Assembly (NCBI RefSeq): GCF_013817205.1
Contig: NZ_JACDDD010000007.1
Span: forward strand, 1-64,000
Direction: 5' to 3'
From: Polaromonas sp.
GTDB lineage: Bacteria; Pseudomonadota; Gammaproteobacteria; Burkholderiales; Burkholderiaceae_C
Length of the DNA: 64,000 bases
Part shown: piece by piece, positions 732 through 56,304 of the stretch
How the letters are laid out: every line of letters starts with the position of its first letter
Numbering within the stretch: the first letter of the stretch is position 1
Program-made: the position numbers and the translations under genes
Notes under the pieces: generated by a model
Databases searched by the model: none
The model's input: the letters and a program-made list of their open reading frames with translations, nothing else
What the model was told of the DNA's origin: nothing

Positions 732-2252
732 ATGGTCACACGCGTTTCGGCCCAGGCAGCGGGCAAAAAAGTCGCGAAGAATGTACAGAAAAACGTGACG
801 CGCGCGGTCTCCGGCACCCTGGGCCTGTCGGGCGAACGCATGAGCAAGGTGGACACCGCCTGGCTGCGCATGGACACCCCGTCCAACCTGATGATGATTG
901 TCGGCGTCTGGCAGCTCACGCCGGGTGTCAGCCATGCGGCGGTCTGTGAGCGCATGGAGACCAGCCTGCTCAAGTACGGGCGCTTCCGCCAGCGCGTGAT
1001 GGAAGACACCGCAGGCGCCACCTGGGTCGAGGACCGCTATTTCGACGTGAAGAACCACGTCATTGCGGAAAAGCTGCCCAAAAGCGCCAAAGGGCAGGAA
1101 CAGGAGGTACTGCAGGACCGCGTGGCCGAGCTCGCCATGCAGCCGCTGGACCGCACACGCCCGCTGTGGCAAATCCACCTGGTCGAGGACTACACCAGCC
1201 CCGACGGCGTCAAGGGCAGCGCCATGATTGTGCGCATCCACCACTGCATTGCCGATGGCATCGCACTGATCTCGGTGACCATGTCGCTGGTCGATGGCGG
1301 CGCCGCGCCGCCCGAGCGACGCAAAAAGGAAACCGGCGGCGCCGAGGACTGGATTGCCGACACCCTGCTCAAGCCCTTTACCGACCTGACCGTCAAGGCG
1401 CTGGGCGCGGCCGGTGACGGCGCGGTGCGTTCGCTGCACCTGCTGAGCGATCCGCAAAAAGGCATGGCGGGCTCGATGGACATGGCCAAGGTCGTCTTGC
1501 AGGTGCTCAAAGACGGCGCCGCGCTGGCGCTGATGCCTGACGACTCGAAAACCCGGCTCAAGGGTAAACCGGGAACGACCAAAAAAGTCGCCTGGTGTCA
1601 GCCGATTCCGCTGGAGGAAGTCAAGGCCATCGGCAAGGCGCTGAACTGCTCGATCAACGACGTGCTGCTCAGTTGCGTGGCTGGCGCCATCGGCGAATAC
1701 CTCAAGTCGCACGGCGACGATGTCAAAGGCCAGGAAATCCGCGCCATGGTGCCGGTCAACCTGCGGCCCATGGAGCAGGCCTACAAGCTGGGCAACCGCT
1801 TCGGCCTGGTGCCGCTGGTGCTACCCATCGGCGTGGACAATCCCGTAGAGCGCGTTTACGAAGTGCGCAGGCGCATGGCCGCGCTCAAGGGCAGCTACCA
1901 GCCGCTGCTGGCCTTCAGCCTGCTGGCGATCGCCGGCCTGCTGATCAAGCCGGCGCAGGACGCGATGCTGAACCTGTTCTCGAAAAAAACCACGGCCGTA
2001 ATGACCAACGTGCCGGGCCCGCGCGAAAAACTGAAGTTCTGCGGCGCCACGCTGGAGCAAAGCATGTTCTGGGTGCCGCAGTCAGGCGACGTCGGCCTGG
2101 GCGTGTCCATCCTGAGCTACGGCGGCGGCGTGCAGTTCGGCGTAATCACCGACAGCACGCTCTGCCCCGAGCCCCAGCGCATCATCGACGAGTTCATTCC
2201 CGAATTTGCCAAACTATCCATCGTGACCTTGATGCTGCCTTGGGGGGAGTGA
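732..2252 (+). CDS. Wax ester synthase/diacylglycerol acyltransferase (WS/DGAT) family
   Basis: HHCIADGIA active-site motif (HHxxxDG) and C-terminal NVPGPREKLKFCGA block typical of WS/DGAT. Confidence 0.9.
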   Translation: MVTRVSAQAAGKKVAKNVQKNVTRAVSGTLGLSGERMSKVDTAWLRMDTPSNLMMIVGVWQLTPGVSHAAVCERMETSLLKYGRFRQRVMEDTAGATWVEDRYFDVKNHVIAEKLPKSAKGQEQEVLQDRVAELAMQPLDRTRPLWQIHLVEDYTSPDGVKGSAMIVRIHHCIADGIALISVTMSLVDGGAAPPERRKKETGGAEDWIADTLLKPFTDLTVKALGAAGDGAVRSLHLLSDPQKGMAGSMDMAKVVLQVLKDGAALALMPDDSKTRLKGKPGTTKKVAWCQPIPLEEVKAIGKALNCSINDVLLSCVAGAIGEYLKSHGDDVKGQEIRAMVPVNLRPMEQAYKLGNRFGLVPLVLPIGVDNPVERVYEVRRRMAALKGSYQPLLAFSLLAIAGLLIKPAQDAMLNLFSKKTTAVMTNVPGPREKLKFCGATLEQSMFWVPQSGDVGLGVSILSYGGGVQFGVITDSTLCPEPQRIIDEFIPEFAKLSIVTLMLPWGE

Positions 2253-2266
2253 GCTGGTCTTGTAAG

Positions 2267-2322
2267 CTTTTTCGTGCTCTAGCCCACGACTGACGGGCGT
2301 AAGGAGCTATTGAATTCATAGC
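2267..2322 (-). repeat. Dispersed short intergenic repeat R2, copy
   Basis: Minus strand gctatgaattcaatagctccttacgcccgtcagtcgtgggctagagcacgaaaaa. Confidence 0.7.
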
Positions 2323-2449
2323 AACTCGTAGAGTCTGCAGGCATCGCGCTGTGGCACCGGCTTGCGGCGGGCAGTAGTTTTAACTCCCCACTCCCAACCC
2401 CCCGCCTCATTTGGCCGCGTGCGCTGCGCTCGCTTGCAAACATGACTGT

Positions 2450-2760
2450 TCGTTGGGATTCCCGCAGAAGAAGCGCTGCGCGCTTCTTCTGCTCCGGACT
2501 TTTGCCCCCGCATTAGTGTCGCCCCCACCCGTCGGGCTGGGCCGAGGAGCGGAGCCGAAAGTGGATCAGGACGGGCGATTGTCTGAGCGTAGCGAGTTCG
2601 AGCCCGGCCCCACTTTTGGCGAGCACCGGAGGTTGCCCGTAGCGAAGCGGAGGGACCCAGACCATCGGGTCGCCTTTCTTTCCGTTAGGTTTCTTTGGCG
2701 AGACAAAGAAAGGTAACTCGCCTGCCGGGGCGAGACCCGGCTTGTTCGAAGCACTCACAC
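2450..2760. repeat. Dispersed intergenic repeat (hairpin TTTCTTTG-GCGAGA-CAAAGAAA at 2690-2711)
   Basis: Overlapping spurious ORFs in both strands, perfect 8-bp stem; resembles the intergenic GTAGCGAAGCGGAGGGAC..GGTCGCCTTTCTTT..GGCGA.CAAAGAAAGT repeat seen in Burkholderiales. Confidence 0.55.
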
Positions 2761-2798
2761 AGCACGGGCTTGCAAAAAAATTCGACCTGCCTCGAGGC

Positions 2799-3572
2799 TC
2801 AGACCTCGACCGGAAACCGCCGTGAAGCAATCTCCAGCAAACCATCAAAAATAAGCCCTTCCACCAGTTCCACTTCAATGGACATGCTGGGGGCCATCTT
2901 CCACCCCGCACCACCGGTCATGATGCATTCCGGCGCCTCACCGCAATGGCGGGTGGTGTTTTCGACCATGCGCTGCACCGCGCCGGCAATGGCAAAGGTG
3001 CCGCCACTGGTCAGGGCGTCGCTGGTGTTGGTCGGGAAGTCCTTCACGTCGCCGGTCGGCACATGCAGGCCGGCCGTGCCGGACTCGAGCGCGCGCAGCA
3101 TGATGCCGTGGCCCGGCAGGATGATGCCGCCGAGGAACTTGCCCGAGGCGTCGATGACTTCGACGGTCACTGCCGTGCCCACCATCACGACCACGCAGGG
3201 CTTCTGGATCCCGCGGGCCAGCAGCCGCTGCCGCGCGCCTATCATCGCGACCCAGCGGTCGGCGCCCAGGCGTGCGGGATGGTCATAGCCATTGGTCACG
3301 CCGGCTTCCTGGGCACTCGGAATCACCCAGCGCGGCGCGACGTCCCAGAGTTCCATCTGTTCAATCACGCGGCGCTTGACCGCGTCGCCGGCGACGATGC
3401 AGCCAAGGATGTGCAAGGGGGCGGGCAGCCCGTTCCACTCATCGTCGGCGAGTTTGTCGATGTTTTCGAGAAACACAGCGCCATGGGCCAGCACCCGCGA
3501 TCCCGCAACCGGGGCCTCGTACTGGGCCCACTTCAGGCGGGTGTTGCCCACGTCAAGTGCTAGAAATGTCAT
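2799..3572 (-). CDS. coaX: Type III pantothenate kinase
   Basis: [45 protein letters not shown] motifs of CoaX. Confidence 0.95.
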
Positions 3573-3617
3573 GTGACAGGATTATGAACACTTATGTGTG
3601 CGTGTCGGCGGGAGCCG

Positions 3618-5063
3618 TCACCGCAGTGACGTGAACGGCCGGCTGAAATCCACACTGCCGCCGCGCACGGCCTCATAGGCGCGTGAAGCGCGCAGCACCA
3701 GCGCATCGCCAAACATGGGACCGACAAACTGCAGGCCGATCGGCAAGCCATCGCTGGTTAACCCACAAGGCACGGTGCTGGCGGGTTGCTGGGTCAGGTT
3801 GAAGGGGTAGGAAAACGGTGTCCATCCCAGCATGGCGACAGGGTCCATGGGCGAATGGCCGGCGGGCCGTGCCTCGAAGGCCGGCACCGCGACGCTGGGC
3901 GTGACCAGCAGGTCGAAGCGCTGCATGAACAGGCGCATCTGCGAGCCCAGCGCGCCGCGTTGCAGATGCAAGCGCTGGATGTCGAGCAGGCTGAGCTTCT
4001 CGCCCAGCAGTGCCTCGGAACGAAAATCCGGGTCGGTCAGTGCCTGCTGCGCCGGGCTCAGGGTGTTCCAGACGGTCCAGGCACCCGCAAACCACAGACC
4101 AGTGGTGATCTCCAGCGGATCGTCAAAGCCCGGGTCGATCTGTTCGACGTGGGCGCCCAGTTCCGACAAAAGAGCCACGGCCTGCGCCACAGAACGGGCC
4201 ACCTCCGGATGCACGTTTTTTGCATAACCCAGCGTGGGCGACCACGCAATGCGCAGGCCGCGTATGCCGCCGTCCAGCCCGTGCAGGTAATCGCTGCTGT
4301 CCGGCGGCAGCGAGGTCCAGTCGCGCGCGTCGGGCTTTTTGAGCACATTCATCATCAGCGCGGCATCAAACACGCTGCGGCTGTGCGGCCCCAGATGCGC
4401 CACCGAGCCAAAAGGCGACAGCGGGTAGGCGGGTACCCGCCCGAAACTCGGTTTGAGGCCAAAGTTGCCGCAGAAAGCCGCGGGGATGCGCACTGAACCG
4501 GCTCCGTCGGTGCCCACGGCCAGCGGCCCCATGCCGGAGGCAACAGCCGCCGCCGCGCCGCCGGAAGATCCCCCCGGTGTTTTCGACAGGTCCCGGGGAT
4601 TGCGCGTGATGCCGGTACGCGGCGAGTTGGTTTCGCCCTTGCAGCCGAACTCCGGCGTGCTGGTCTTGCCGACAATCACCGCGCCGGCTTCACGCAGCCG
4701 GGCCGTGACCGGCGCGTCCACGTCCCAGGGCTGATCGACATCCACCGTGTGGCTGCCGCGCAGCGTCGGCATGCCGCGCGTCAGGATGAGATCCTTGATC
4801 GAGACCGGCACGCCGTCGAGTTCGCCGCAGGGTGCACCACCCCGCCGGAATTGTTGCCAGCGGGTTTCGCTGGCTGCGGCGGCTTGCAGCGCAGACTCCT
4901 GAGCCACCAGGCAAAAGGCCTTGAGCTGTGGATTCAGCGCATCAATCCGGGCCAGCACCGCACGCGTGGCGCCCACCGGTGAGGCCTCGCCGCTTTGATA
5001 AAGCTGCAGCAACTCGGTGGCGGTGCAGTCGGCAAGATCAGCAGGGGCAGCGGAGGGCATCAT
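3618..5063 (-). CDS. Amidase (amidase signature family)
   Basis: GVPVSIKDLILTRGMPTLRGS..KTPGGSSGGAAAAVASGMGPLAVGTDGAGSVRIPAAFCG. Confidence 0.95.
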   Translation of the reverse strand: MMPSAAPADLADCTATELLQLYQSGEASPVGATRAVLARIDALNPQLKAFCLVAQESALQAAAASETRWQQFRRGGAPCGELDGVPVSIKDLILTRGMPTLRGSHTVDVDQPWDVDAPVTARLREAGAVIVGKTSTPEFGCKGETNSPRTGITRNPRDLSKTPGGSSGGAAAAVASGMGPLAVGTDGAGSVRIPAAFCGNFGLKPSFGRVPAYPLSPFGSVAHLGPHSRSVFDAALMMNVLKKPDARDWTSLPPDSSDYLHGLDGGIRGLRIAWSPTLGYAKNVHPEVARSVAQAVALLSELGAHVEQIDPGFDDPLEITTGLWFAGAWTVWNTLSPAQQALTDPDFRSEALLGEKLSLLDIQRLHLQRGALGSQMRLFMQRFDLLVTPSVAVPAFEARPAGHSPMDPVAMLGWTPFSYPFNLTQQPASTVPCGLTSDGLPIGLQFVGPMFGDALVLRASRAYEAVRGGSVDFSRPFTSLR

Positions 5064-5078
5064 CGGGTACTCCAGACA

Positions 5079-6578
5079 TCAGGGCCGGCGGCGCATGGCT
5101 TCCGGCAGGTTCTTCCACGGCAGGTCGGCCGGGTCGGCGGCCATCGGCCCTGCAGCCTTGGCCACAATGATGTCGGTTGTTGCATCGGCCACCAGCGGCG
5201 TGAAGTCGGCGCGGAAGTGGTTGGAGCTTTTGACCACAATGATTTTCATGGCTTCGGGCGTGATGCCGACCATGCGGAACAGTTCGCGGTCCAGCATCTG
5301 CATCTGCCCGCTGGCGACGGCCACGAGAATGCCGTCGATTTCGAGGCAGGCGCAAGGCCCGAGCGTGGCGGCCATGCCGGTCATCATGGCACCCCTGAGC
5401 GTCACCTGGCCGTCGCTCACAGCGCGCACCTTGAACTCGCCCTGCACCGGCGGATCGCTGTGCTGGCCGGTGAAGGTCGGCACCGCTTGCCCGAGACTGA
5501 GGGAGACGCTGGCGCCCACGCCGACGGCCCACGCGGCCTGCGCGGCAGCGGGGTCAAACAGCAGACCCAGGGCGACTTGGCCCGGGAACTGCCGGCCCGC
5601 GCCCTGCGCGAGCAGCGCATGCAACAGGCCGGTGGTGTTGCTGCTGCCGCCGGCGCCCGGGTTGTCTTGGGTGTCGGCGATGACCAGCGGCTTGTTCATC
5701 CCCGCTGCGCGGGCCAGCACATGCGCGACCGCATCCTGCGCCGGCAGGAAATCCAGCGTCCATTGCGCGGGCTCGGCGACCCGCGCATACAGATGTGCCA
5801 GCGCGTCCGGCGCACGCTCACCATGCGCCCAGACCATGGGACCGCACTCGTCGAAGTCGGAGGCTGGAAAGCCCATGCAAAAACTAAGGCGCACATCGAA
5901 CTGTTTATCGGCGGCTGCAAGCGCTTCGTACAGGCCTTGCGCAGGCGCCATCCAGGTGCTTTGGGCGTTCAGCGGAATCAGGAAAGGCAGGCGCCGGAAC
6001 TGGACATCCTCTTTGCGGCCAAGCGCCATGCGGCGCGCCAGCAGGTCGGCTGCCAGCTCACCGGTGGAGGCCATGTCGATGTGCGGGTAGGTGCGGTAGG
6101 CGACCAGTGCATCTGCCTGCGCCAGCATGGCTTCGGTCACATTCGCGTGCAGGTCCAGGCTGGCGACAATCGGCAGGTCCGGCCCCACCAGGGTGCGGAT
6201 GCGGGTGATCAGTTCACCCTCGGTGTCGGCCACATGTTCTGCCACTCCGGCGCCGTGGAGGTCTAGGTAAACGGCGTCGAAGCCGCCTTGTGCGACATCG
6301 GCCAGCACCTCGGTGCAGATGCGTTCAAAAGCCTCCTGTGTCACATAGGACGACGGCGAGGCGCCGCACCAGCTGCCGGGCAGCACCTGCCAGCCGCGCG
6401 CCTGGGCGGCGGCGATGAAACCGCCGGCCGGCAGATTGACGCCGGTGAGCTGGTGCAGCATGGTCTGGCCCTGCATGAAAGCCGGGAACACATCACCGCG
6501 ATTAAAGGCAGCCCAGTCTGCCTTGGTGGGCGCAAAGGTGTTGGTTTCGTGCTGGTAACCGGCGACAAGGATTTTCAA
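5079..6578 (-). CDS. M81-family (microcystinase MlrC-like) metallopeptidase; probable TTG start overlapping upstream stop
   Basis: LKILVAGYQHETNTFAPTKADW..DAVYLDLHGAGVAE..DLHANVT; TTGA overlap with the stop of the ABC ATPase at 6575. Confidence 0.85.
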   Translation of the reverse strand: MKILVAGYQHETNTFAPTKADWAAFNRGDVFPAFMQGQTMLHQLTGVNLPAGGFIAAAQARGWQVLPGSWCGASPSSYVTQEAFERICTEVLADVAQGGFDAVYLDLHGAGVAEHVADTEGELITRIRTLVGPDLPIVASLDLHANVTEAMLAQADALVAYRTYPHIDMASTGELAADLLARRMALGRKEDVQFRRLPFLIPLNAQSTWMAPAQGLYEALAAADKQFDVRLSFCMGFPASDFDECGPMVWAHGERAPDALAHLYARVAEPAQWTLDFLPAQDAVAHVLARAAGMNKPLVIADTQDNPGAGGSSNTTGLLHALLAQGAGRQFPGQVALGLLFDPAAAQAAWAVGVGASVSLSLGQAVPTFTGQHSDPPVQGEFKVRAVSDGQVTLRGAMMTGMAATLGPCACLEIDGILVAVASGQMQMLDRELFRMVGITPEAMKIIVVKSSNHFRADFTPLVADATTDIIVAKAAGPMAADPADLPWKNLPEAMRRRP

Positions 6579-8221
6579 AAAGTAGCTCCGGGCGCGGCGT
6601 CCAGCAGCCGGCGCGTGTAGTCGTGTTGGGGGTGGGCGTACAGCTGGGCCGTTGGCCCTTGCTCGACAATTTTTCCCTGGTGCATCACGATGACCCGGTC
6701 GCACAGTTGCGCGGCCACCCGCAGGTCATGGGTGATGAAAAGCAGGCCCAGTCCGAGTTCGGCCTGGATCTCGCGCAGCAAGGCGAGGATTTGCGCCTGC
6801 ACACTGACGTCGAGCGCGCTGACAGCTTCGTCCGCAACCAGTACGCGCGGCCGACAGGCCAGGGCGCGGGCAATCGCGATGCGCTGGCGCTGGCCACCCG
6901 AGAATTGGCTGGGGTAACGCTGCAGGCCTTCGGCCGGTAGCCGGACCTTGTCCATCAAAAGGACTGCGAGCGCCGTCGCTTCTGCGTGACTAGCTCCGAA
7001 ATTGATAGCACCCTCGATGATGGAGTCACCGACCTTGCGGCGCGGGTTCAGCGATCGATTGGGGTCCTGAAATACCACCTGGACCTGGCTGCGCAGCGGC
7101 CGGAGCTTGCCTTCGCTGAATCCGGCGACATCGATCAGCGCGCTGTCCGCGTCCTGGCCGGGCGGTCGCCACAACACATGGCCGGCGGTCGGGTCGATCA
7201 GGCGGATCAGGCAGCGCGCCAGCGTCGATTTGCCGGACCCGGACTCACCCACCACACCCACGGTTTCGCCGGCCGATACCGCCACCGACGCGGCCTGCAG
7301 CGCATGGGTCAGGCGTTGGCGGCCCAGCCAGTCGCGCGCGACATAGGTCTTGCTGACCTCTTGGCCGCGCAGCAGCGGTGTACCGAGCGGCGCCGGACGC
7401 GCAGGCGGTGGCGTCATGCCGGGCACCGCGCCGAGAAGCATTTTGGTGTAGTCGGCCTTGGGGTTGCGCAGCACCTCGTCACGGGTGCCGTACTCGACGG
7501 CCCGCCCCTGGTTCATCACCAGCACCTCGTCGGCAATGTCGGCCACCACGCCCATGTCGTGCGTGATGAACAACACGGCGCAGCGGTGGCCGCCCGACAG
7601 GCCGGCCTGCAGGTCCTCGATCAGCTTGAGAATTTCCTTTTGTGTCGTGACATCAAGCGCCGTGGTCGGCTCGTCGCAAATCAGCAGGGCCGGCTGCAGG
7701 ATCACCGCCATCGCAATCACGATGCGCTGGCGCTGGCCGCCCGAGAGCTGGTGCGGGTAGCTGCGCATCATGCGTTCGGGCTCGGGCAGCTTGACGCGTT
7801 GCAGGATGTTCAGCACCGCCTCGTTGCGGCGCTTGGCATTCCAGTCGGTGTGCTGTCTGAGCAGCTCGTCGATCTGGTCGCCGCAGCTCATCACCGGATT
7901 CAGCGCCGTCATCGGCTCCTGGAACACCATGCCCATGGCCTGGCCGCGCAAGGCGCGCAGGCGCTGCACGCTGGCATCGAGCAGGGACTCCCCCTGCAGC
8001 ACAATGCGGCCCGGACCGGGCTTGAGCTCGCGCGCCAGCAGCCCCATCACCGCCGTGGCCATGACCGACTTTCCGGAGCCGGACTCGCCGACTACACACA
8101 GGGTCTGCCCGGCGTGAATGCGCAGGCTGATGTCTTCCACCGCGTATGCACGGTCGCTGCCCGGCGGCAGGGCCACATGCAGCTTGTCAATGACGAGGAT
8201 GGGCGCGGTCTCGGTACTCAT
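6575..8221 (-). CDS. Dipeptide/oligopeptide ABC transporter, fused tandem ATP-binding protein (DppD-DppF/GsiA-like)
   Basis: Two Walker A (GESGSGKS) and two LSGGQRQR/FSGGQRQR signatures in one 548-aa ORF. Confidence 0.95.
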   Translation of the reverse strand: MSTETAPILVIDKLHVALPPGSDRAYAVEDISLRIHAGQTLCVVGESGSGKSVMATAVMGLLARELKPGPGRIVLQGESLLDASVQRLRALRGQAMGMVFQEPMTALNPVMSCGDQIDELLRQHTDWNAKRRNEAVLNILQRVKLPEPERMMRSYPHQLSGGQRQRIVIAMAVILQPALLICDEPTTALDVTTQKEILKLIEDLQAGLSGGHRCAVLFITHDMGVVADIADEVLVMNQGRAVEYGTRDEVLRNPKADYTKMLLGAVPGMTPPPARPAPLGTPLLRGQEVSKTYVARDWLGRQRLTHALQAASVAVSAGETVGVVGESGSGKSTLARCLIRLIDPTAGHVLWRPPGQDADSALIDVAGFSEGKLRPLRSQVQVVFQDPNRSLNPRRKVGDSIIEGAINFGASHAEATALAVLLMDKVRLPAEGLQRYPSQFSGGQRQRIAIARALACRPRVLVADEAVSALDVSVQAQILALLREIQAELGLGLLFITHDLRVAAQLCDRVIVMHQGKIVEQGPTAQLYAHPQHDYTRRLLDAAPGATF

Positions 8222-9105
8222 GAACCGCGTTTCGAAAATTTGGGATCAAGCACGTCGCGCAACCCGTCGCCCAGCAGGTTGATGGCCAGGACGGTGGGCA
8301 CCAGGAACAGCGCCGGAAACAGCACGTTGCCCGGGTACTGGGTGAACTGCACCCTGCCCTCGGCCATGATGTTGCCCCAGGTTGGAATATCGGCAGGCAG
8401 ACCCAGCCCCAGGAAACTCAGGATGGCCTCGGTCAGCACCGCCGACGCGGCGACAAAGGTTCCCTGAACAATCAGCGGCGCCATGGCGTTGGGCAGGATG
8501 TGCCGCCACAGGATCACCGGCGTCGGCGTCGCCAGCGCACGCGCGGCTTCCACAAACGGCTCCTCGCGCAAGGTCAGCACCATGGAACGCACCAGTCGTG
8601 TGACGCGAGGAATTTCCGGAATCGCGATGGCCACCACCACCGTCCACAGCTGTGCGCCCAGCGCCGCCACCAGCGCTATCGCCAGCAGGATGGCCGGGAT
8701 GGCCATCAGCCCGTCCATGAAACGCATCAGCACCGCGTCGACGATGCGGAAGTAACCCGCCAGCATGCCCAGCAGCGCGCCGACACCGATGGCCACCACG
8801 GCGGTGAAAGCTGCCACCAGCAGCGAGGTGCGCGTGCCGAAAAGCACGCGGCTGTAGATGTCGCGGCCGAAGTTGTCAGCGCCCATCCAGAACGTGTGTT
8901 GGACCACTGTGCCGTCGAGCTGCGCAAACTCGCCGCGCACACCTGACGCGGTGTTGATGTGCGCCGAATCCATGGCCGCCGGGTCCACCGTGCCCAGCAG
9001 CGGCGCCAGAGCAGCCACAAGCAGCAACAGACCAATCACGCTGGCGCCGAAACGAAAGGCGCTGTTGACCCAGAGCCTTCGCCAGAGAAGCTGACCAGCG
9101 CCCAT
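8218..9105 (-). CDS. Dipeptide ABC transporter permease (DppC-like)
   Basis: GADNFGRDIYSRVLFGTRTSL, LGLGLPADIPTWGNIMAEGR; 4-nt overlap with downstream ATPase. Confidence 0.93.
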   Translation of the reverse strand: MGAGQLLWRRLWVNSAFRFGASVIGLLLLVAALAPLLGTVDPAAMDSAHINTASGVRGEFAQLDGTVVQHTFWMGADNFGRDIYSRVLFGTRTSLLVAAFTAVVAIGVGALLGMLAGYFRIVDAVLMRFMDGLMAIPAILLAIALVAALGAQLWTVVVAIAIPEIPRVTRLVRSMVLTLREEPFVEAARALATPTPVILWRHILPNAMAPLIVQGTFVAASAVLTEAILSFLGLGLPADIPTWGNIMAEGRVQFTQYPGNVLFPALFLVPTVLAINLLGDGLRDVLDPKFSKRGS

Positions 9106-10073
9106 CAGTAACGAATCCTCGGGTCGAGAAACAGGTAACTCACGTCCACCAGCAGGTTGACGCCCACATACAGCAGGCTGAAAAACAGCACTAGGCCCTG
9201 GATCACCGGAAAGTCGCGGTTCAGCACTGCATCAACCGTCAGCGAACCGAGGCCGGGGATTGAGTACACCGTCTCCGTCACCACCACACCGCCGATCAGC
9301 AAAGCCACACCGATGCCGATCACGGTAACGATGGGGACTGCGGCATTGGCCAGGGCATGACGCATTAACACTGCGGATTCGGTCAGCCCCTTGGCACGCG
9401 CGGTGCGGATGTAATCCTCGGTGAGGGCCTCGGACACGCTGGCGCGCGTCACCCGCGCGATCAGCGCGACATAAATCATGGCCAGCGTAACCCAGGGCAG
9501 CACCAGTTGCCTGGCCCAGGTCCAGACACCCCCGCCGTCGCTGCCGAACAGGCGCCGGTACCCCTGCACCGGAAACCAGTCAAGCTGCACGGCAAACACG
9601 TAAATCAGCAGGTAGCCAGTGACAAAGACCGGAATGGAAAACCCGGCGACGGAAAAGCCCGACAGCACCCGGTCCAGCCAGCCGCCCATACGCCAGGCCG
9701 CGATGGTGCCCAGCGGCACCGCCACCAACACCGCCAGCACCAGCGTGCCGGCCGCAAGGCTCAACGTGGGCTCCAGGCGCTGCGCGATAAGCTCGGTCAC
9801 GGGCTTGTTCAGGTAAAAGGAATACCCAAGGTCGCCCTGCAACACACCGCTGAACCAGATCCAGAACTGGACCAGCAGCGGCTTGCTCAGGCCCAGAGTC
9901 TCCCGGATTTTCTCGATGTCTTCGTTGGTCGAGTTGTTGCCGGCAATCACGGCCGCCGGATCCCCCGGCGTGAGCCGCAGGATCAGGAACACCACGACGG
10001 CCACCACCAGCAAAACAGGGATGGTGGCGAGCAGGCGCTGCAGCAGGAATCTCAGCATGGCCGACGGCGCCAA
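9105..10073 (-). CDS. Dipeptide ABC transporter permease (DppB-like)
   Basis: MLRFLLQRLLATIPVLLVVAVVVFLILRLTPGDPA; RARVTRASVSEAL..DYIRTARAKGL. Confidence 0.93.
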   Translation of the reverse strand: MAPSAMLRFLLQRLLATIPVLLVVAVVVFLILRLTPGDPAAVIAGNNSTNEDIEKIRETLGLSKPLLVQFWIWFSGVLQGDLGYSFYLNKPVTELIAQRLEPTLSLAAGTLVLAVLVAVPLGTIAAWRMGGWLDRVLSGFSVAGFSIPVFVTGYLLIYVFAVQLDWFPVQGYRRLFGSDGGGVWTWARQLVLPWVTLAMIYVALIARVTRASVSEALTEDYIRTARAKGLTESAVLMRHALANAAVPIVTVIGIGVALLIGGVVVTETVYSIPGLGSLTVDAVLNRDFPVIQGLVLFFSLLYVGVNLLVDVSYLFLDPRIRY

Positions 10074-10098
10074 GCAACGTGGCGACCACTCTTTTTAA

Positions 10099-10187
10099 GC
10101 AGGGGCCGCGGATCTGGCTTTGCCAGTCCGCAGGCGCAGCGCCCCCTCGGGGGGCAGCGACGACACGTCAGTGCGGAGCGTGGGGGC
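10099..10187 (-). repeat. Dispersed GC-rich intergenic repeat R1, copy B
   Basis: gcaggggccgcggatctggctttgccagtccgcaggcgcagcgccccctcggggggcag..gagcgtgggggc, nearly identical to 17799-17888. Confidence 0.85.
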
Positions 10188-10188
10188 A

Positions 10189-11772
10189 CTAGTTCTTTTT
10201 GATGTTCCAGTACACCTGCGCACCGCCGGGCACGAGGCCGGAGATGTTGCTGCGCAGCGCCGCTGGATTGTTGTATTGGCCCAGATGCACATGCGTCGCG
10301 GTTTCAATCGCACGCAACTGCAACTGCTCGGCCAGCTTCTTCTTCTCGACCTCGGTGCTGGCTTGGGCAAACTTGACTTTCAAGTCCTCGATGACCTTGT
10401 CATCCTGCCAACCGAACCAGCCCTTGTCGCCAGTGGCATTGAGCATGGCCATGGTCAGCGGGTTCTGGATGTCACCGGCGGTCCAGGCCGTCATGAAGGC
10501 GTTCCAGCCGCCCTTGTCTGGTGCATCCTTCTTGGCGCGGCGAGCCAGCAGCGTGGACCAGTCCGACTGCTGCATGTCGACCTTGAAGCCAGCCGCTTCG
10601 AGCTGCTGCTTGGCAACCAGCGGCAACTTGGCAATCGAGGCCAGGTCGGTAGGCCGCATCAGCACGATGGGTTCGCCCTTGTAACCGGCCTCGGCCAGCA
10701 TCTGTTTGGCTTTGGCAGGATTGGCCATGCCGGTGTAAATGCCGGTGTTGTCACTGGCGTAGGGCGTGCCGCAGGGAAACATACTCTTGCAGTATTTGTA
10801 CATGCCGGGCGCCCCCACCTGGGTCTTGAGGAAGGCTTCCTGACCCATGGCAACCATGGCCGCCTGGCGGATCTTCACGTTGTCAAACGGCGCATGCAGG
10901 TGGTTGAAGCGGAAGATGTACTGCAGGCCGGCTGGTTGGGCGTCCACGATCTGCACGTCCTTGGCCGCCTTGAGCGAGGCGTACTGCTCAAAAGCCGGCT
11001 GCTCGACGATGTCCACCTCGCCGGCGATCAGTGCATTGAACTGGGTCTGCGGATCACGAATGATGATCCACTCCACGCGGTCCAGGTAAACGTTTTTGCC
11101 GCCTGTGGTGCCATTGGGCACTTCACTGCGCGGCTTGTATTTGTCGTTCTTGACATAAACCAGCTTTTCACCGGGCTTGTATTCCGACGTGACAAACTTG
11201 TAAGGGCCGGAGCCGATGTTTTCCTTGATCTGCTCGCTGCCCGGTGTGGCCGCGATGCGCGCCGGCATGATGAAAGGCACGTTGGAAGAAGGTTTGCCCA
11301 GGGCTTCGAGCATCACCCCGAAAGGCTGGTTGAACTTCAGAATAAAGGTTTTCGCATTGGCCGTTTCGTAACTGGCCAGGCTTTTGGCCATGACCCCGCC
11401 GAAGCTGTCACGGCTGGACCAGCGCTTGAGCGAAGCCACCACATCTTCGCTGGTGACCGGTTTGCCGTCATGAAACTCCAGGCCGTCGCGCAGGGTGAAA
11501 GTCCAGACCGTGTTGTCCTTTGAAGCCGAGTAGGTGTCGACCATCTGCGGCTTGACTTTGCCTTCCAGGTCAGTGCCAAACAGGGTGTCGTAAATCATGT
11601 AGCCGTGGTTGCGCGTCACGAAGGCCGTGGTCCAGACCGGGTCCAGGATGGTGATATTGGAGTGCGGCACCACTTTCAAGGTTTTCGCCTGGGCTTGGGC
11701 AGCGGCAGGCAGCATCAGGGAGGACACCAGCGCAGCAGAAGTGGCCAGGGCAACAAGGGATCGACGTTTCAT
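10189..11772 (-). CDS. Peptide ABC transporter substrate-binding protein (SBP_bac_5)
   Basis: Signal peptide, AKTLKVVPHSNITILDPVWTTAFVTRNHGYMIYDTLFGTD, WTFTLRDGLEFHDGKPVTSEDVVASLKRW. Confidence 0.93.
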   Translation of the reverse strand: MKRRSLVALATSAALVSSLMLPAAAQAQAKTLKVVPHSNITILDPVWTTAFVTRNHGYMIYDTLFGTDLEGKVKPQMVDTYSASKDNTVWTFTLRDGLEFHDGKPVTSEDVVASLKRWSSRDSFGGVMAKSLASYETANAKTFILKFNQPFGVMLEALGKPSSNVPFIMPARIAATPGSEQIKENIGSGPYKFVTSEYKPGEKLVYVKNDKYKPRSEVPNGTTGGKNVYLDRVEWIIIRDPQTQFNALIAGEVDIVEQPAFEQYASLKAAKDVQIVDAQPAGLQYIFRFNHLHAPFDNVKIRQAAMVAMGQEAFLKTQVGAPGMYKYCKSMFPCGTPYASDNTGIYTGMANPAKAKQMLAEAGYKGEPIVLMRPTDLASIAKLPLVAKQQLEAAGFKVDMQQSDWSTLLARRAKKDAPDKGGWNAFMTAWTAGDIQNPLTMAMLNATGDKGWFGWQDDKVIEDLKVKFAQASTEVEKKKLAEQLQLRAIETATHVHLGQYNNPAALRSNISGLVPGGAQVYWNIKKN

Positions 11773-11902: not shown

Positions 11903-12568
11903 TCAGATCACACCCAGCCAGCAGGCCCGCTGAATTGCCGCCATTTTGTTGTCCACCCTGAGCTTGGCCATGGCATTGGCCATGTGGTAGTTGATGGTAC
12001 GTTCGGTGCAACGCAGGCGCTCACCGGTCTGACGCGCGGTCATGCCCTCAAAGGCCAGCGCCAGGCATTCGCTTTCACGCGGGCTCAACGGACTGCTGGC
12101 CGCCGCCATGGTGCGCTTGAACAAAGGCCAGATGTTCAGGGCCGACCAGACCAGCGCCGCAGCCTCGGCGCGGTCATGGAACTGGCGCGGACTGAACATG
12201 AAACATTCAAAGGCGCGGCCGGATGGCAAGGGGAACTCGACCCGCACCACGCTCTGGAATCCGTGGGCCAGCCACAACAGGCGCCAGCGGTCAACGCCGG
12301 CGCCCGAGTTGGCGATGTGCTGCCAGGCCACCAGCGGCGCATCGGACTCCCGCCAGGGCGCCCCAAAATCCCGACTTTCGGCCAGTGAGGCGGCCGGCTC
12401 CTGCAGGCGAGGGGGATGAACCGCCACCACCACCCGGTCCTGGCGCCGACCGAAAGGATCGGGGCCCAGCACAACCACCGCCTCGACCGCATATTCACGC
12501 AAGGCAGAAATCCAGTCTGCCAGCATGCTGTCCAGCGCAACACTGTCAAAGTTGACAGGGGATGGCAT
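11903..12568 (-). CDS. LuxR-family transcriptional regulator (autoinducer-binding-type LuxR solo)
   Basis: C-terminal LSPRESECLALAFEGMTARQTGERLRCTERTINYHMANAMAKLRVDNKMAAIQRA is a LuxR HTH; about 150-aa N-terminal sensor region. Confidence 0.85.
   Translation of the reverse strand: MPSPVNFDSVALDSMLADWISALREYAVEAVVVLGPDPFGRRQDRVVVAVHPPRLQEPAASLAESRDFGAPWRESDAPLVAWQHIANSGAGVDRWRLLWLAHGFQSVVRVEFPLPSGRAFECFMFSPRQFHDRAEAAALVWSALNIWPLFKRTMAAASSPLSPRESECLALAFEGMTARQTGERLRCTERTINYHMANAMAKLRVDNKMAAIQRACWLGVI
12543..12558. promoter_or_regulatory. lux-box-like palindrome CTGTCAAAGTTGACAG (CTGT-N8-ACAG)
   Basis: Perfect 7-bp arms with 2-nt spacer, 14/16 identical to the core at 16314-16329; lies in the first codons of luxR and upstream of the divergent kinase. 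Confidence 0.55.
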
Positions 12569-12595
12569 ATTCGGTTTCTCTCCAGAACTGTGACA

Positions 12596-13975
12596 ATGTG
12601 TCGAGTGATGTTCCCAGACTTATTCATGAACTCCGGAGTACCTGCCAGGATCAAGCGCATGCTTAACGCAGTCTGGCGCTACCCGGGCCTGTCGGGACGC
12701 CTGTCGACCCGGATCAAGGCCGAGCTTCAGGAGCAGATGATGCTTATTTTGCACCCATCGCCCTGGCGCTTGCGTTGGCTGGGACTGTTCACACTGGTCG
12801 GGCACCCGTTGTTCGGGTGGATCTGGGGCCACTGGCTGCCTCAGCCGTATGAGCACCCCGGCCTGCGCACGGTGATGGGCGCCATGGGGCTGCTGCTGAT
12901 CTCCGAGAGCATCGCCAACGACCCGTCGAGCAAACTTTCTGCGCGAGTTTTTTCTCTGGTGTTCTGGATACAGCTGCCGGTTTTTTTCAGCTGGATGTAT
13001 CTTTGCAACAGCGGCAACACGGTCTGGCTCGCCAGCTTTTGCGCGATGGTGCTGATTTATTACCACCTGACCGACTGGCGAGTCGCCACGCTGGGCACCG
13101 TCAGCGGGGTATTGCTTGCCGGGACGCTGTTTCATTTTTTCGGACCATCGGTGCTACCCATGGACGAACAGCAGCAAACCATCAATGCAGTGGTCATCAT
13201 TTTCTGCTGGTCCAGCGCCCTGCTGCTGGGCATCTCGTCGGCCAACCTGCGGCGCGAACACCTGCAATACACGCTCACTACCATGGGGATCATGGCGCAC
13301 GAATTGCGTACGCCGCTGGCCACCATCTCGCTGATCGGGGACGCCGTACGCAACGAGAACCAGAACGCCGGGGAGGCAAATGGGTCCCAGCAACTTGATC
13401 AGCTGGTGGTACGGCTGCATGGCCTGGTGCGCAACATGAACCAGCAAATCGACACGCAGATCGCCAATGCAAGCCTGTTGCGCCTGCCGATGCACAGGGA
13501 GACCGTGACCGCTGCCGCGCTGCTGCGCAACGTCGTCAAGGACTATCCCTACCGCAACTCGCGCGAGCGCGAGAGTGTGACCCTGGTGCTGCGCAAGGAC
13601 TTCTCGTTCGAATCGTCATACCGGCTGTTCGCCCAGGTCATCAACAACCTGCTGAAGAACGCATTCCGTTCGCTGGCAGCCGTCAGCTCGGCACCCAAGC
13701 CCGGCGACCTGCGCATTGAAATGGGGGTGATCAACGGCGCCGGACGCATCGTCATCACCGACCAGGGTGTCGGCATCCCGCCAGAATTGCAAGCCCGCAT
13801 CTTCGAGCCCTTTTTCTCTACCGATCACGGCACCGGTCACGGCCTGGGGCTGGCCTTCTGCCGGCAGGTGGTACAGGGCGCCGGCGGAACCATTCGCGTG
13901 AAGTCCGAACCCGGTCGCGGCGCCATCTTCATCATCGAAATGGCGCCCGTTGACGAGAGCGCATTCCGGCCCTGA
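12596..13975 (+). CDS. CqsS/LqsS-type sensor histidine kinase (multi-TM sensor, HisKA, HATPase)
   Basis: Hydrophobic N-terminal TM block with LPQPYEHPGLR, GIMAHELRTPLATISL (H box), NNLLKNAFRSL, DQGVGIPPELQARIFEPFFSTD.HGLGLAFC. Start uncertain (12596, 12626 or 12659). Confidence 0.8.
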   Translation: MCRVMFPDLFMNSGVPARIKRMLNAVWRYPGLSGRLSTRIKAELQEQMMLILHPSPWRLRWLGLFTLVGHPLFGWIWGHWLPQPYEHPGLRTVMGAMGLLLISESIANDPSSKLSARVFSLVFWIQLPVFFSWMYLCNSGNTVWLASFCAMVLIYYHLTDWRVATLGTVSGVLLAGTLFHFFGPSVLPMDEQQQTINAVVIIFCWSSALLLGISSANLRREHLQYTLTTMGIMAHELRTPLATISLIGDAVRNENQNAGEANGSQQLDQLVVRLHGLVRNMNQQIDTQIANASLLRLPMHRETVTAAALLRNVVKDYPYRNSRERESVTLVLRKDFSFESSYRLFAQVINNLLKNAFRSLAAVSSAPKPGDLRIEMGVINGAGRIVITDQGVGIPPELQARIFEPFFSTDHGTGHGLGLAFCRQVVQGAGGTIRVKSEPGRGAIFIIEMAPVDESAFRP

Positions 13976-13993
13976 CTACTATCCAGGCACCCC

Positions 13994-14971
13994 ATGAGTT
14001 TTCCACTGTTTCGCCGCCCCGGTGCCATCGTTTTTCTCGACGATGACCCCGACTATCTTGAGATGCTGGCCATGGTGTTGCCCCGGCAATGGCACATCAA
14101 ACTCTACCTGCGGCCGCAAACCTGCATCCACCAGTTGCAGCAAGAGCCGCCCCTGTGGGAAGCTGATGCCTGGGCGCAGCAGGAAATCATCGACAACTGG
14201 CGCGCTGGCAGCCCGCTGATCCCGCAAATCCTGCAGTACTGGGCAGCCCAGGGGCAGCGCTACGACCTCAGCCAAGTTTGCGTCTTTGACTACGCGATGC
14301 CCGGCATGGACGGGCTGCAAGCCCTGTCCGAACTCACGGACTGGTCCGGTGGCCGCATCCTCCTTACCGGTCAGGCGGACGAGCATGTGGCGGTCAGCGC
14401 TTTCAACCGGGGACTGATTGACCAGTTCATTGCCAAACAGACACCCGACATTTCGCAACACCTGATCTCGGTGGTACAGCGCATGCTGGACCGGCCCCAG
14501 TTGCGGCACTCCCAGACCTGGCGGGCCGCGCTGACACAACCGCAACATGCATTGCTGCAGGTGCCGTCGGTGGCCCGGCAACTGAGCGCGCTGGCAGCCA
14601 ACCACTGGGTAGAACATGTGGTGATCGGGCAGCCTTTCGGCATCCTCGGCATGGAAGCCGGTGGCGGTGTCAGCTGGCTGCAGCTGGAGTCTGCTTCCGG
14701 GCTGGTCGAGCTGGCCGAGCTGGCCGAGTCACAAGGCGTCGATGCCAAAGCGGCGGCCGGCATCCGGGAGGGGCGTCATCTGGTGGACCTGGAACTTCAG
14801 CAGGCGCTGGGGCGCAGCGATGGCCCACGACTGCTGCCGGCGTTTTCCATCGGGCACGAGGGCGCGGTGCTGGCGGCGCTGTTTCCGCTGGACATTCCAG
14901 CCAGTCAGCGCGGCTGGGTTGGCTACAAACACTGGCTCAAAAAAACAGGGCCACGCAAGGTGCAGGATTAG
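13994..14971 (+). CDS. LqsR-like response regulator (receiver with extended insertion plus C-terminal domain)
   Basis: IVFLDDDPDYLEML, VCVFDYAMPGMDGLQAL, ILLTGQAD, FIAKQ; non-HTH C-terminal region; immediately follows the kinase. Confidence 0.75.
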   Translation: MSFPLFRRPGAIVFLDDDPDYLEMLAMVLPRQWHIKLYLRPQTCIHQLQQEPPLWEADAWAQQEIIDNWRAGSPLIPQILQYWAAQGQRYDLSQVCVFDYAMPGMDGLQALSELTDWSGGRILLTGQADEHVAVSAFNRGLIDQFIAKQTPDISQHLISVVQRMLDRPQLRHSQTWRAALTQPQHALLQVPSVARQLSALAANHWVEHVVIGQPFGILGMEAGGGVSWLQLESASGLVELAELAESQGVDAKAAAGIREGRHLVDLELQQALGRSDGPRLLPAFSIGHEGAVLAALFPLDIPASQRGWVGYKHWLKKTGPRKVQD

Positions 14972-14979
14972 GGAAGCGC

Positions 14980-16248
14980 CTAATAGGCGCCCATCGCCTG
15001 GGCCGCGCGCGCACGCCGTGCAATCGGCCAGTCCCACGGTTTGACCAGCGGCGCCACCGCGCGCGCCACGCCTTCCACATGATTGAGTTCGGCCTCGGTC
15101 AGCGCGGCATGCAGGGTCAGCCGCACCATGGCACGATTGCGGCTGGTGGCCGGCGCACAAAATACCGCACCGAAAACGCCTCGTTCCTCCAGGTGGTCGC
15201 GCAGCACCATAGTGTCTGGCTCGGTCCCGGCCTCCAGAGAAATGATCTGCTCCGTCCCCTGGTGGATCGGGTAACCCATGTCAGACAGGCTGCTGCGCAG
15301 CCGCAAGGTGTGGGCCTGCAGGCGCTGGCGTTGTTCGTCGCGTTTTCGGATCACCGCGAGAGTGGCGCCGAGACCGGCGATCTCGTGAGGCAGCAGGCAG
15401 GAACTGAAGATGTTGGGAAAGCTGGAACTCAGGATGTAGTAGCGCAATTCCGCCGGCGCCGTGAAAAAGCCGCCGCGGCCGGCAAAGGCCTTGGCCAGGC
15501 TGGCTGTGATGAAGTGCACCCTGTCGGTCAGCCCGAGCTCCGCGCACAGGCCGGTCCCGCCGGGCCCGTGTGTGCCGAGCGAATGCGACTCGTCCACCAG
15601 CATCATGCAGCCGTGGCGCTCAGCTACTTCCACCATTTCGCGCAAGGGGCACAAGGCGCCGGTGGTGCTGTAAACCGAATCCACCACGACCACGCCCGGG
15701 CCGTGGCGCGACAACATCCGGTCCAGGTGGGCCGGGTCGTTGTGGCGAAACGGATGCGCCGGCGCGCGCGCCGCGTGTGCCCCTTCCCATAGCGACGTGT
15801 GCGCCAGGGTGTCGAGGTATACCGGCGTTTGGGGGTCGGCAATCGCCTGCAGCAAGCCGACGTTGGCCGCATAGCCGGACTGGCACACAAACCCGTCTTC
15901 CTTGCCTACCCACCGGGCGAGATTTTTCTCGAGAGTACGCGCAGGGTGCTCGCCGTGGACAAACACCCCTGACTGGATCACGAAGTCCCTGTCGCACTGC
16001 AAGGCCGTCACCTGCGCACGAACGATGTCCGGGTGACCGGTCAGGCTGAGGTAATCGTTGCCGTCCAGTCGGACGGCATCGGGACCGGCAGCCCGGCCGT
16101 GCAGCACGAACTTGCCGCCCCATTGCCCTTCCCAGCGCGGCTTGAAATCACGCGCGATGCGTTGCTGCAAATGCATGGACAGGACGGGGTTGGCGAGAGA
16201 TTTTGTTACCGGCGGCGCCCGTGGAACCTCAAGAGGGTATGCAAGCAT
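14980..16248 (-). CDS. CqsA/LqsA-family alpha-hydroxyketone autoinducer synthase (PLP-dependent, AONS-like fold)
   Basis: NDYLSLTGHPD, VDESHSLGTHGPGGTGLCAELGLTDRVHFITASLAKAFAGRGGFF (PLP-Lys), next to CqsS/LqsS-type kinase; AAGG ribosome-binding site 5' of ATG 16248. Confidence 0.8.
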   Translation of the reverse strand: MLAYPLEVPRAPPVTKSLANPVLSMHLQQRIARDFKPRWEGQWGGKFVLHGRAAGPDAVRLDGNDYLSLTGHPDIVRAQVTALQCDRDFVIQSGVFVHGEHPARTLEKNLARWVGKEDGFVCQSGYAANVGLLQAIADPQTPVYLDTLAHTSLWEGAHAARAPAHPFRHNDPAHLDRMLSRHGPGVVVVDSVYSTTGALCPLREMVEVAERHGCMMLVDESHSLGTHGPGGTGLCAELGLTDRVHFITASLAKAFAGRGGFFTAPAELRYYILSSSFPNIFSSCLLPHEIAGLGATLAVIRKRDEQRQRLQAHTLRLRSSLSDMGYPIHQGTEQIISLEAGTEPDTMVLRDHLEERGVFGAVFCAPATSRNRAMVRLTLHAALTEAELNHVEGVARAVAPLVKPWDWPIARRARAAQAMGAY

Positions 16249-16310
16249 GGTGGTTACCTTGTGAAAAAGTACCCCCATTGAAGATGAATCCGGTTAAGTT
16301 GGAGCCGCTG

Positions 16311-16332
16311 CCCCTGTCAACATTGACAGGGG
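16311..16332. promoter_or_regulatory. lux-box-like palindrome CCCCTGTCAACATTGACAGGGG upstream of the CqsA-like gene
   Basis: Perfect 10-bp inverted arms with 2-nt spacer, CTGT-N8-ACAG core, 63 bp 5' of the CqsA start. Confidence 0.6.
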
Positions 16333-16402
16333 TAAGACTCCGAAAAAGACTCGTTGTGGTGTCGTCCACAAAAATCGAATCCTTTTGTACTAATCGGCAC
16401 GC

Positions 16403-17707
16403 CTACCGACTCCCGCCCGTGAGACTCAGTGCGGCCAGGGCCATGATCTTGGCACTGTCCACCAATTCCTGAATGCCCACGTATTCGTCGGGCTGATGGG
16501 CTAGATCCAGAATGCCGGGGCCATAGGCAATGCAGGCATCGAGCTTTCCGGTGCGCACGATGTGTTTTTGGTCGTACGTGCCGGGGCTGGAAATGTAGCT
16601 GGCCTCACGCCCCAGCACGCGGGCGATGGCACGGGCGGTGGCCAGCACTACTGGTGCGTCCCGTGGCGTGGCCGTCGGCACAAAACTCATGATGTCACGC
16701 ACGCCGTAGTCAAACCCTGGCCGGCTGCGCTTGAGCTCCTCAAGCATGGCGACGATTTCAGCCTTGACGGCCTCAAGGTTCTCCTCGGCAATGAAGCGCC
16801 GGTCCAGCACTGCGCGGCAGGAATGTGCCACCACCGGCGACGGTAGATCGCCGGTCGGCCGGTTCAGCGCGTCCATGGAGAACATCTGTTCGACCTGACC
16901 GCCGTGCAGGCTGTTGATGTTCAGCGTGCTGACCCGCGCGCCGGGCGGCTCCACCGGCTCAGCTGTGTGGCGCTGCAACAGGCGCGGCTGCAATTGGGTT
17001 TCCAGCAGGTGGATGAAGGCACTCATGTGGTTGATGGCGCTGTCCCCCAGGAAAGGCATGGAGCCATGGGCAATGCGACCCCGGGTTTCGACCTCGCCCC
17101 ACCAGACGCCGCGGTGACCGAGGCAGATGCGGTCCACGCCCAGCGGCTCGGGAATGATCACGTGGTGCACGCGCGGCCGGGTGAAATAACCGCGCTCGGC
17201 CAGGTAGCCCACGCCGGCAAAACCACCCGATTCTTCATCGACAGTGCCCGAAATTTCCAGCGCGCCTGCAAACGGTACGCCTTCTTCGAGAATGGCTTCG
17301 CAGGCGATCACGCTGGAAGCCAACCCGCCCTTCATGTCGCAGGTGCCGCGGCCGTAAACCTTGCCGTCCCGGACCTCGCCGCCGAAGGGCTCGGTGGTCC
17401 AGCCGGAGCCGGCTTCGACCACGTCGATGTGGCTGTTGAAGTGCACACACTCCCCGCCGGTCTGGCCTTCGTAGCGCGCGACGACGTTGATGCGAGGGTG
17501 CGAATCGCGGTCGCCCGGCGCGCCGGTAGCGCGTATGTATTCCACCGCAAACCCGCGTTTTGCCAGCCGCTCGCCCAGCAGGCGGGCACAGGCTTCGTAA
17601 GCATCGCCGGGTGGATTGGTCGTGGGGATGCGTACCAGGGCTTGTGTCAACGCGATCACCTCGTCGCGTTTGGATTCGATGCGTTTGAGCAGGCTGTCGT
17701 GGTTCAT
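16403..17707 (-). CDS. M20-family peptidase/deacylase (ArgE/DapE/acetylornithine deacetylase-like)
   Basis: VHFNSHIDVVEAG, GRGTCDMKGGLASS, DEESGG motifs. Confidence 0.9.
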   Translation of the reverse strand: MNHDSLLKRIESKRDEVIALTQALVRIPTTNPPGDAYEACARLLGERLAKRGFAVEYIRATGAPGDRDSHPRINVVARYEGQTGGECVHFNSHIDVVEAGSGWTTEPFGGEVRDGKVYGRGTCDMKGGLASSVIACEAILEEGVPFAGALEISGTVDEESGGFAGVGYLAERGYFTRPRVHHVIIPEPLGVDRICLGHRGVWWGEVETRGRIAHGSMPFLGDSAINHMSAFIHLLETQLQPRLLQRHTAEPVEPPGARVSTLNINSLHGGQVEQMFSMDALNRPTGDLPSPVVAHSCRAVLDRRFIAEENLEAVKAEIVAMLEELKRSRPGFDYGVRDIMSFVPTATPRDAPVVLATARAIARVLGREASYISSPGTYDQKHIVRTGKLDACIAYGPGILDLAHQPDEYVGIQELVDSAKIMALAALSLTGGSR

Positions 17708-17798
17708 GGGGGCAGTTTATGTGAACCGTGCCGCGCTGTCTCTTGGTCCGTTCACTGCAGCAGACGGCGGAACGAGCGCAAACTCCCAGTATTCACCA

Positions 17799-17888
17799 GC
17801 AGGGGCCGCGGATCTGGCTTTGCCAGTCCGCAGGCGCAGCGCCCCCTTGGGGGGCAGAGAGATACACGCAGTGAGCGAACGTGGGGGC
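17799..17888 (-). repeat. Dispersed GC-rich intergenic repeat R1, copy C
   Basis: Near-identical to 10099-10187. Confidence 0.85.
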
Positions 17889-56179: not shown

Positions 56180-56272
56180 GCCCCCACGCTCCCCACTTCG
56201 TGTGGTTCGCTGCCCCCCGAGGGGGCGCTGCGCCTGCGGCCTGGCAAAGCCAGTTCCGCGGCCCCGGCTTGC
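56180..56272 (+). repeat. Dispersed GC-rich intergenic repeat R1, copy D, lying between livH and livM
   Basis: gcccccacgctccccacttcgtgtggttcgctgccccccgagggggcgctgcgcctgcggcctggcaaagccagttccgcggccccggc. Confidence 0.85.
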
Positions 56273-56304
56273 AAATACTCCCCGTCGCTCGCAGGCTCGT
56301 AAAA

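Follow-up and report, generated by a model that had tools for sequence, protein, structure and literature searches.

A LuxR-family regulator as the probable DNA-binding arm of an alpha-hydroxyketone quorum-sensing locus in Polaromonas and other Comamonadaceae

Quorum-sensing loci of the Lqs type, which use alpha-hydroxyketone (AHK) signals, are widespread in Alpha-, Beta-, and Gammaproteobacteria (PMC10653808), and have been reported for Janthinobacterium (PMC3566124, PMC5080296) and, as trios of synthase, kinase, and regulator genes, for Polaromonas (PMC3376566). The route by which Lqs/Jqs signals act on promoters is not settled: no DNA-binding domain is known for the LqsR family (PMC3376566, PMC10653808), which calls for another DNA-binding output, the output domain of LqsR-type regulators resembles a degenerate diguanylate cyclase (PMC10653808), and the published description of the Janthinobacterium promoter motif names no protein acting on it. 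Here, we analyzed a locus at positions 11903–16332 of a 64,000-nucleotide stretch (the window) from the 3.77 Mb draft genome of a Polaromonas sp. (NZ_JACDDD010000007.1), whose nearest related loci are from Polaromonas and in which an AHK trio lies beside a luxR gene. The trio itself is not new, having already been reported in Betaproteobacteria including Polaromonas; the new part is the coupling of a LuxR-family regulator to it. In the open literature that we searched, subscription journals being outside its scope, we found no AHK locus containing a dedicated LuxR together with defined operator sites.

We are fairly confident that this is an AHK locus with a dedicated LuxR as its DNA-binding arm, which would autoregulate the synthase gene, the kinase-regulator operon, and luxR, and would act on lineage-specific distant genes. 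An earlier sequence-only reading had described the four genes, luxR (−), LqsS-type kinase (+), LqsR-type regulator (+), and AHK synthase (−), all of which are present, and had singled out integration with a LuxR-family regulator as the unusual part. That proposal found strong support in conserved synteny, two conserved operator-like boxes, near-perfect co-occurrence of LuxR and synthase, and the joint loss of luxR and boxes in one genome.

The synthase gene (14980–16248, − strand; alternative start 16278, less likely because AAGGT stands before 16248) encodes an AHK autoinducer synthase of the CqsA/LqsA/JqsA type, scoring 578 bits against NCBIfam NF005526 (alpha-hydroxyketone-type quorum-sensing autoinducer synthase; cutoff 428). 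It is highly improbable that the protein is instead a housekeeping 8-amino-7-oxononanoate synthase (AONS), 2-amino-3-ketobutyrate ligase (KBL), or serine palmitoyltransferase (SPT), in which case the cluster would not be quorum sensing. Although it shares the fold family of these pyridoxal phosphate enzymes and gives weaker matches to the bioF and SPT models, it exceeded the AHK-synthase equivalog cutoff by 150 bits, fell below the cutoff of each of the bioF/AONS, KBL, SPT, and ALAS models, and had CqsA as by far its nearest solved relative (3hqt and 2wk8, ∼351 bits; next family 144 bits); the gene is also linked to LqsS and LqsR homologs. Curated cutoffs and comparison with the PDB thus led us to reject the AONS/KBL/SPT assignment and uphold the AHK type that had been read from the sequence.

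The other two members of the trio fit the same assignment. The response regulator (13994–14971, + strand, 325 aa) has invariant receiver residues D16/D17, D99, T125, and K148, and its AlphaFold2 (AF2) model, built from a 41-sequence alignment (predicted local distance difference test score, pLDDT, 91.6), matched Legionella LqsR (6sy9) best in Foldseek over its full length (E 3.8e-19, TM 0.69/0.73), thirteen orders of magnitude ahead of the next structure. The kinase gene (12608–13975, + strand), whose inferred start codon at 12608 is the most likely one in an open reading frame (ORF) that stays open further upstream, was assigned as a JqsS-like membrane histidine kinase of the LqsS/CqsS type from its kinase domains (HATPase_c, 6.3e-24; H-box HELRTPL), its hydrophobic N-terminal domain, and a receptor motif (P67, W73, PQ.YE, LR, N134, W140, S143) common to 17 AHK-synthase-linked kinases of other families. 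Given the synthase class, the LqsR-fold regulator, and the AHK-linked kinase motif, the gene content identifies a complete Lqs/Jqs-type AHK quorum-sensing locus, as far as sequence and predicted structure can tell. Kinase and regulator genes are separated by 18 bp and are predicted to form one operon, toward which the synthase gene is convergent. From the families concerned, the synthase would make an AHK, which the LqsS-like kinase would sense and signal through the LqsR-like regulator.

The cassette is conserved well beyond this genome. Across a sample of 79 GTDB loci (Comamonadaceae), nearly every locus retained the order synthase/regulator/kinase/luxR and the gene orientations, with synthase identities as low as 62% and with Polaromonas, Hydrogenophaga, Ramlibacter, Caenimonas, and Variovorax all represented. 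This bears out the synteny with the kinase gene on which the sequence-only reading had made its interpretation depend. Since the outer neighbors (DppA, M20 peptidase) vary among loci and the four-gene order stays, the cassette is a unit. The exceptions were L042, which lacks luxR, L018, which stops inside the kinase gene, and L064, which lacks kinase and regulator genes and has a frameshifted luxR. In this last locus (also L273, G410:C183), a synthase gene with a good upstream box remains, possibly as a producer-only remnant. A contig filed under a Brevundimonas metagenome-assembled genome (MAG; L016) bears a locus of the Polaromonas type, 97% identical and likewise flanked by DppA and M20, and is probably mis-binned.

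Within the genus, LuxR and synthase occur together. Among 41 genomes, LuxR was found in 17/17 that were synthase-positive, and 23 of the 24 others had neither (Fisher p 1e-10, phylogeny not accounted for). The sole exception, G414, kept luxR, kinase, and regulator genes and, of the synthase gene, no more than the final 21 codons, which lie behind a box-like palindrome in this Polaromonas MAG (L271, G414:C194, local 5015–5241); this could reflect either a gap in the assembly or a receiver-only state blind to the signal. At AHK loci of other families (16 from an order-level search, and seven loci in six genomes from a class-level search, some on short contigs), no ortholog of the Comamonadaceae LuxR was detected, and the 16 order-level loci had no box at synthase or kinase genes. 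A LuxR unrelated to this one, with the Pfam autoinducer-binding domain, adjoins an lqsR-like gene in a different Burkholderiales family (L127:4657–5391, − strand), which suggests that LuxR proteins have come to accompany AHK systems on more than one occasion.

The 3.77 Mb genome has just two perfect copies of CTGTCA-N4-TGACAG, and both, strandless palindromes resembling lux boxes, are at the locus. One, CTGTCAACATTGACAG (16314–16329), is centered ∼73 bp upstream of the synthase start, and the locus end at 16332 in the sequence-only reading coincides with the end of this palindrome. The other, CTGTCAAAGTTGACAG (12543–12558), lies within luxR codons 4–9, its center ∼57 bp upstream of the likely kinase start. 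CTGT-N8-ACAG is the canonical lux box geometry, and a palindrome of this type is found in both locus promoters. With up to two mismatches, the upstream palindrome was present at 72 of 76 synthase genes, compared to ∼0.5% of dinucleotide-shuffled upstream regions, and information content was high only over C-CTGTCA-N4-TGACAG-GG and near zero outside. A sigma-70 scan of 12400–16500 returned nothing exceeding chance; TTGACA in the right arm of the synthase box could act as a −35 element.

At the same tolerance, the luxR box was found at +10 to +25 of the gene in 75 of 77 loci. Its codons are fixed beyond amino-acid need, with CCT for 73/75 prolines (9% in the rest of the gene), TTT for 74/74 phenylalanines (37% there), and GAC in 74/74, which points to constraint at the DNA level; with rare synonymous codons fixed in this way, an origin of the box as a by-product of protein conservation is ruled out. 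In Polaromonas OV174 (L042), the trio is kept, no LuxR ortholog was detected anywhere in the genome (best match 29 bits, helix-turn-helix only), a different gene occupies the place of luxR, and there is no box at either position.

The luxR gene (11903–12568, − strand) encodes a 221-aa LuxR-family regulator with a GerE helix-turn-helix (HTH) at residues 160–214 (PF00196, 3.1e-15), found in 48/48 members, and an N-domain resembling autoinducer-binding domains. In Foldseek, its AF2 model (pLDDT 88.5) had receptors of the acyl-homoserine lactone (AHL) type as its top 32 matches (QscR, TraR, RhlR, LasR, SdiA, CviR), with modest TM-scores of 0.3–0.5, probably because of domain orientation and a diverged N-domain. 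The protein is not recognizable as an AHL receptor by Pfam: PF03472, the autoinducer-binding domain, was matched by 0/48 members at E ≤ 1, and profile alignment of the N-domain to AHL receptors aligned only the HTH. Within residues 45–67, where AHL receptors carry W57/Y61, neither W nor Y is conserved, and near-invariance was seen for D67 and W82; correspondence to the TraR-type contacts W57/Y61/D70/W85 was judged by eye. Lactone contacts have been lost in LuxR solos that respond to signals other than AHLs (PMC10134790). A PF00765 (luxI) search of the own genome gave no match, nor did the control genomes, so that absence of luxI is not formally shown. Elsewhere, a diverged second LuxR copy (52% identical) was observed near a broken LqsR-like copy, with a transposase-like ORF between them and without a synthase gene (L272, G422:C1, local 2231–5950).

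Boxes also occur away from the locus. In 32 relatives, the strict pattern had 89 sites compared to one for a reversed control pattern, and within the genus, 39 sites fell in 18 LuxR-positive genomes versus 14 in 23 LuxR-negative ones (p 5e-4, phylogeny and completeness not accounted for). Recurrent neighbors of these sites were a type I secretion permease/ATPase in seven Polaromonas genomes (Pfam; HlyB-like but under the subfamily cutoff), a HemJ/UPF0093 gene in six Hydrogenophaga-type genomes, a gene of the GH5 cellulase family in four Polaromonas, and, in three genomes each, a universal stress protein/divergent gene pair and a phosphonate-type binding protein. These targets suggest that the regulon is small and lineage-specific and bears on secretion and surface biology. 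The own genome retains an ortholog of the transporter (68% identical); outside the locus, it holds no further perfect site, and one degenerate third site at C63:274 is near a contig end without clear target.

Taken as a circuit, LuxR would bind both CTGTCA-N4-TGACAG boxes and, once bound, set transcription of the synthase gene, the kinase-regulator operon, and its own gene in a self-reinforcing or self-limiting loop, with a few lineage-specific distant genes, such as the type I secretion transporter, under additional control. As to the sign of regulation, with the right arm of the synthase box doubling as a −35 element, both activation and repression are possible, and since the other box lies just past the luxR start, repression or road-blocking of luxR is favored. 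AHK status might be passed to LuxR by direct ligand binding, by way of LqsR, or through expression alone.

Several observations weigh against this circuit. The co-loss of luxR and boxes comes from a single genome, L042; in six loci from one Polaromonas clade (e.g., L053, L055, L060), the synthase box is degraded despite the presence of luxR; and one Variovorax and one betaproteobacterial locus (L036, L029) are without a good synthase box. The type I secretion promoter of the own genome carries no more than a half-broken box. Polaromonas assembly G415 (L170) has five box sites, one of them upstream of a type I secretion gene, and neither LuxR nor synthase was found in this 91%-complete assembly. 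This last case would be expected if the boxes belonged to an unrelated global regulator and luxR were a mere syntenic passenger, and the TTGACA-like −35 sequences held by the palindrome, together with the ability of other HTH families to read such palindromes, would agree with it. However, the sites have lux box geometry, their number follows LuxR presence in the genus, luxR and boxes were lost together in L042, and one box sits in luxR itself, and we therefore regard an unrelated regulator as improbable.

How LuxR receives its input divides the favored circuit into two sub-hypotheses. LuxR could act ligand-free as a transcriptional executor, with the LqsS-LqsR branch controlling how much of it is present or how it oligomerizes, through protein contact, c-di-GMP-like signaling, or expression, and we give this somewhat less than an even chance. 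It would suit an LqsR-type output that resembles a degenerate diguanylate cyclase without a DNA-binding domain (PMC10653808), and the box within the luxR start suggests autoregulation at the level of expression, but the conservation of an N-domain with a ligand-binding fold (77% mean column identity over the protein) would then need another reason. Alternatively, LuxR could be a second, cytoplasmic receptor for the AHK or its amino precursor, the one signal being sensed twice, by membrane kinase and by LuxR. The N-domain fold of the AHL-receptor class, the nearly invariant W72, D76, W82, and F112 as candidates for an aromatic/polar pocket, the apparently missing W/Y lactone contacts, as in solos that respond to non-AHL ligands from adjacent synthases (PluR/PauR; PMC10134790), and L127 as a second independent pairing of LuxR with an lqsR-like gene are in its favor. 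Nevertheless, PF03472 matched no member even at its permissive threshold, GAF domains match the N-domain too (3hcy), and the membrane receptor by itself accounts for sensing, which leaves direct sensing a tentative and rather unlikely possibility. We are similarly doubtful of its evolutionary form, in which LuxR was recruited as an intracellular AHK receptor, so that AHK would be read by the membrane two-component system and by a LuxR feeding back on synthase, kinase, and itself.

Two further features of the window were observed. An oligopeptide/dipeptide-type ABC transporter operon (6575–11772, − strand) adjoins luxR, as it does in the closest Polaromonas and mostly not in other genera. Dispersed GC-rich repeats of 63–86 nt, 86–97% alike, lie at 10092–10160, 17788–17873, and 56194–56279, two in the same orientation and one inverted, within or beside intergenic regions; they are possibly repeat/terminator elements common in Comamonadaceae.

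Two quorum-sensing families that are usually treated separately appear joined here in one circuit. The locus offers a DNA-binding candidate with a sharply defined site, making the AHK output step directly testable in the environmental, culturable genera Polaromonas, Hydrogenophaga, and Ramlibacter, and the box motif could serve to search bacteria of freshwater, glaciers, and groundwater for AHK regulons. If LuxR were indeed an AHK receptor, this would be the first case of an AHK signal driving a LuxR circuit, across whole Comamonadaceae genera.

Among known systems, the LuxR solos PluR and PauR likewise adjoin a non-LuxI signal synthase, and their lactone-contact residues are altered (PMC10134790), as seems to be so here, but beside the Polaromonas LuxR is an AHK synthase for which the locus already provides a two-component receptor, a pairing of which the searched open literature held no case. 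Vibrio CqsA/CqsS comprises a homologous synthase and membrane kinase receptor, but signals through LuxU/LuxO/Qrr/HapR from a cluster without an LqsR-type regulator (PMC3566124), and no GerE-type LuxR gene is described there. The Legionella pneumophila Lqs system (LqsA/LqsS/LqsR) shares all three protein families, including a full-length fold match for LqsR; in contrast, the Polaromonas locus is without hdeD, has another gene order, and carries an extra LuxR gene and lux-box-like sites. Jqs of Janthinobacterium and Duganella (JqsA/JqsS/JqsR; PMC3566124, PMC5080296) is likewise an AHK trio from Betaproteobacteria in which a palindrome in the promoters controls regulon genes. The JAI-1 motif TTGAN6/7TCAA was rejected as operator of the Polaromonas locus: between synthase and kinase genes it was found only in L130, a probable Jqs-type locus without this LuxR that carries TTGAN6TCAA copies there, and the box here differs. 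Jqs has TTGAN6/7TCAA as its published motif with no LuxR described in the cluster, whereas the Polaromonas locus has CTGTCAN4TGACAG and a LuxR.

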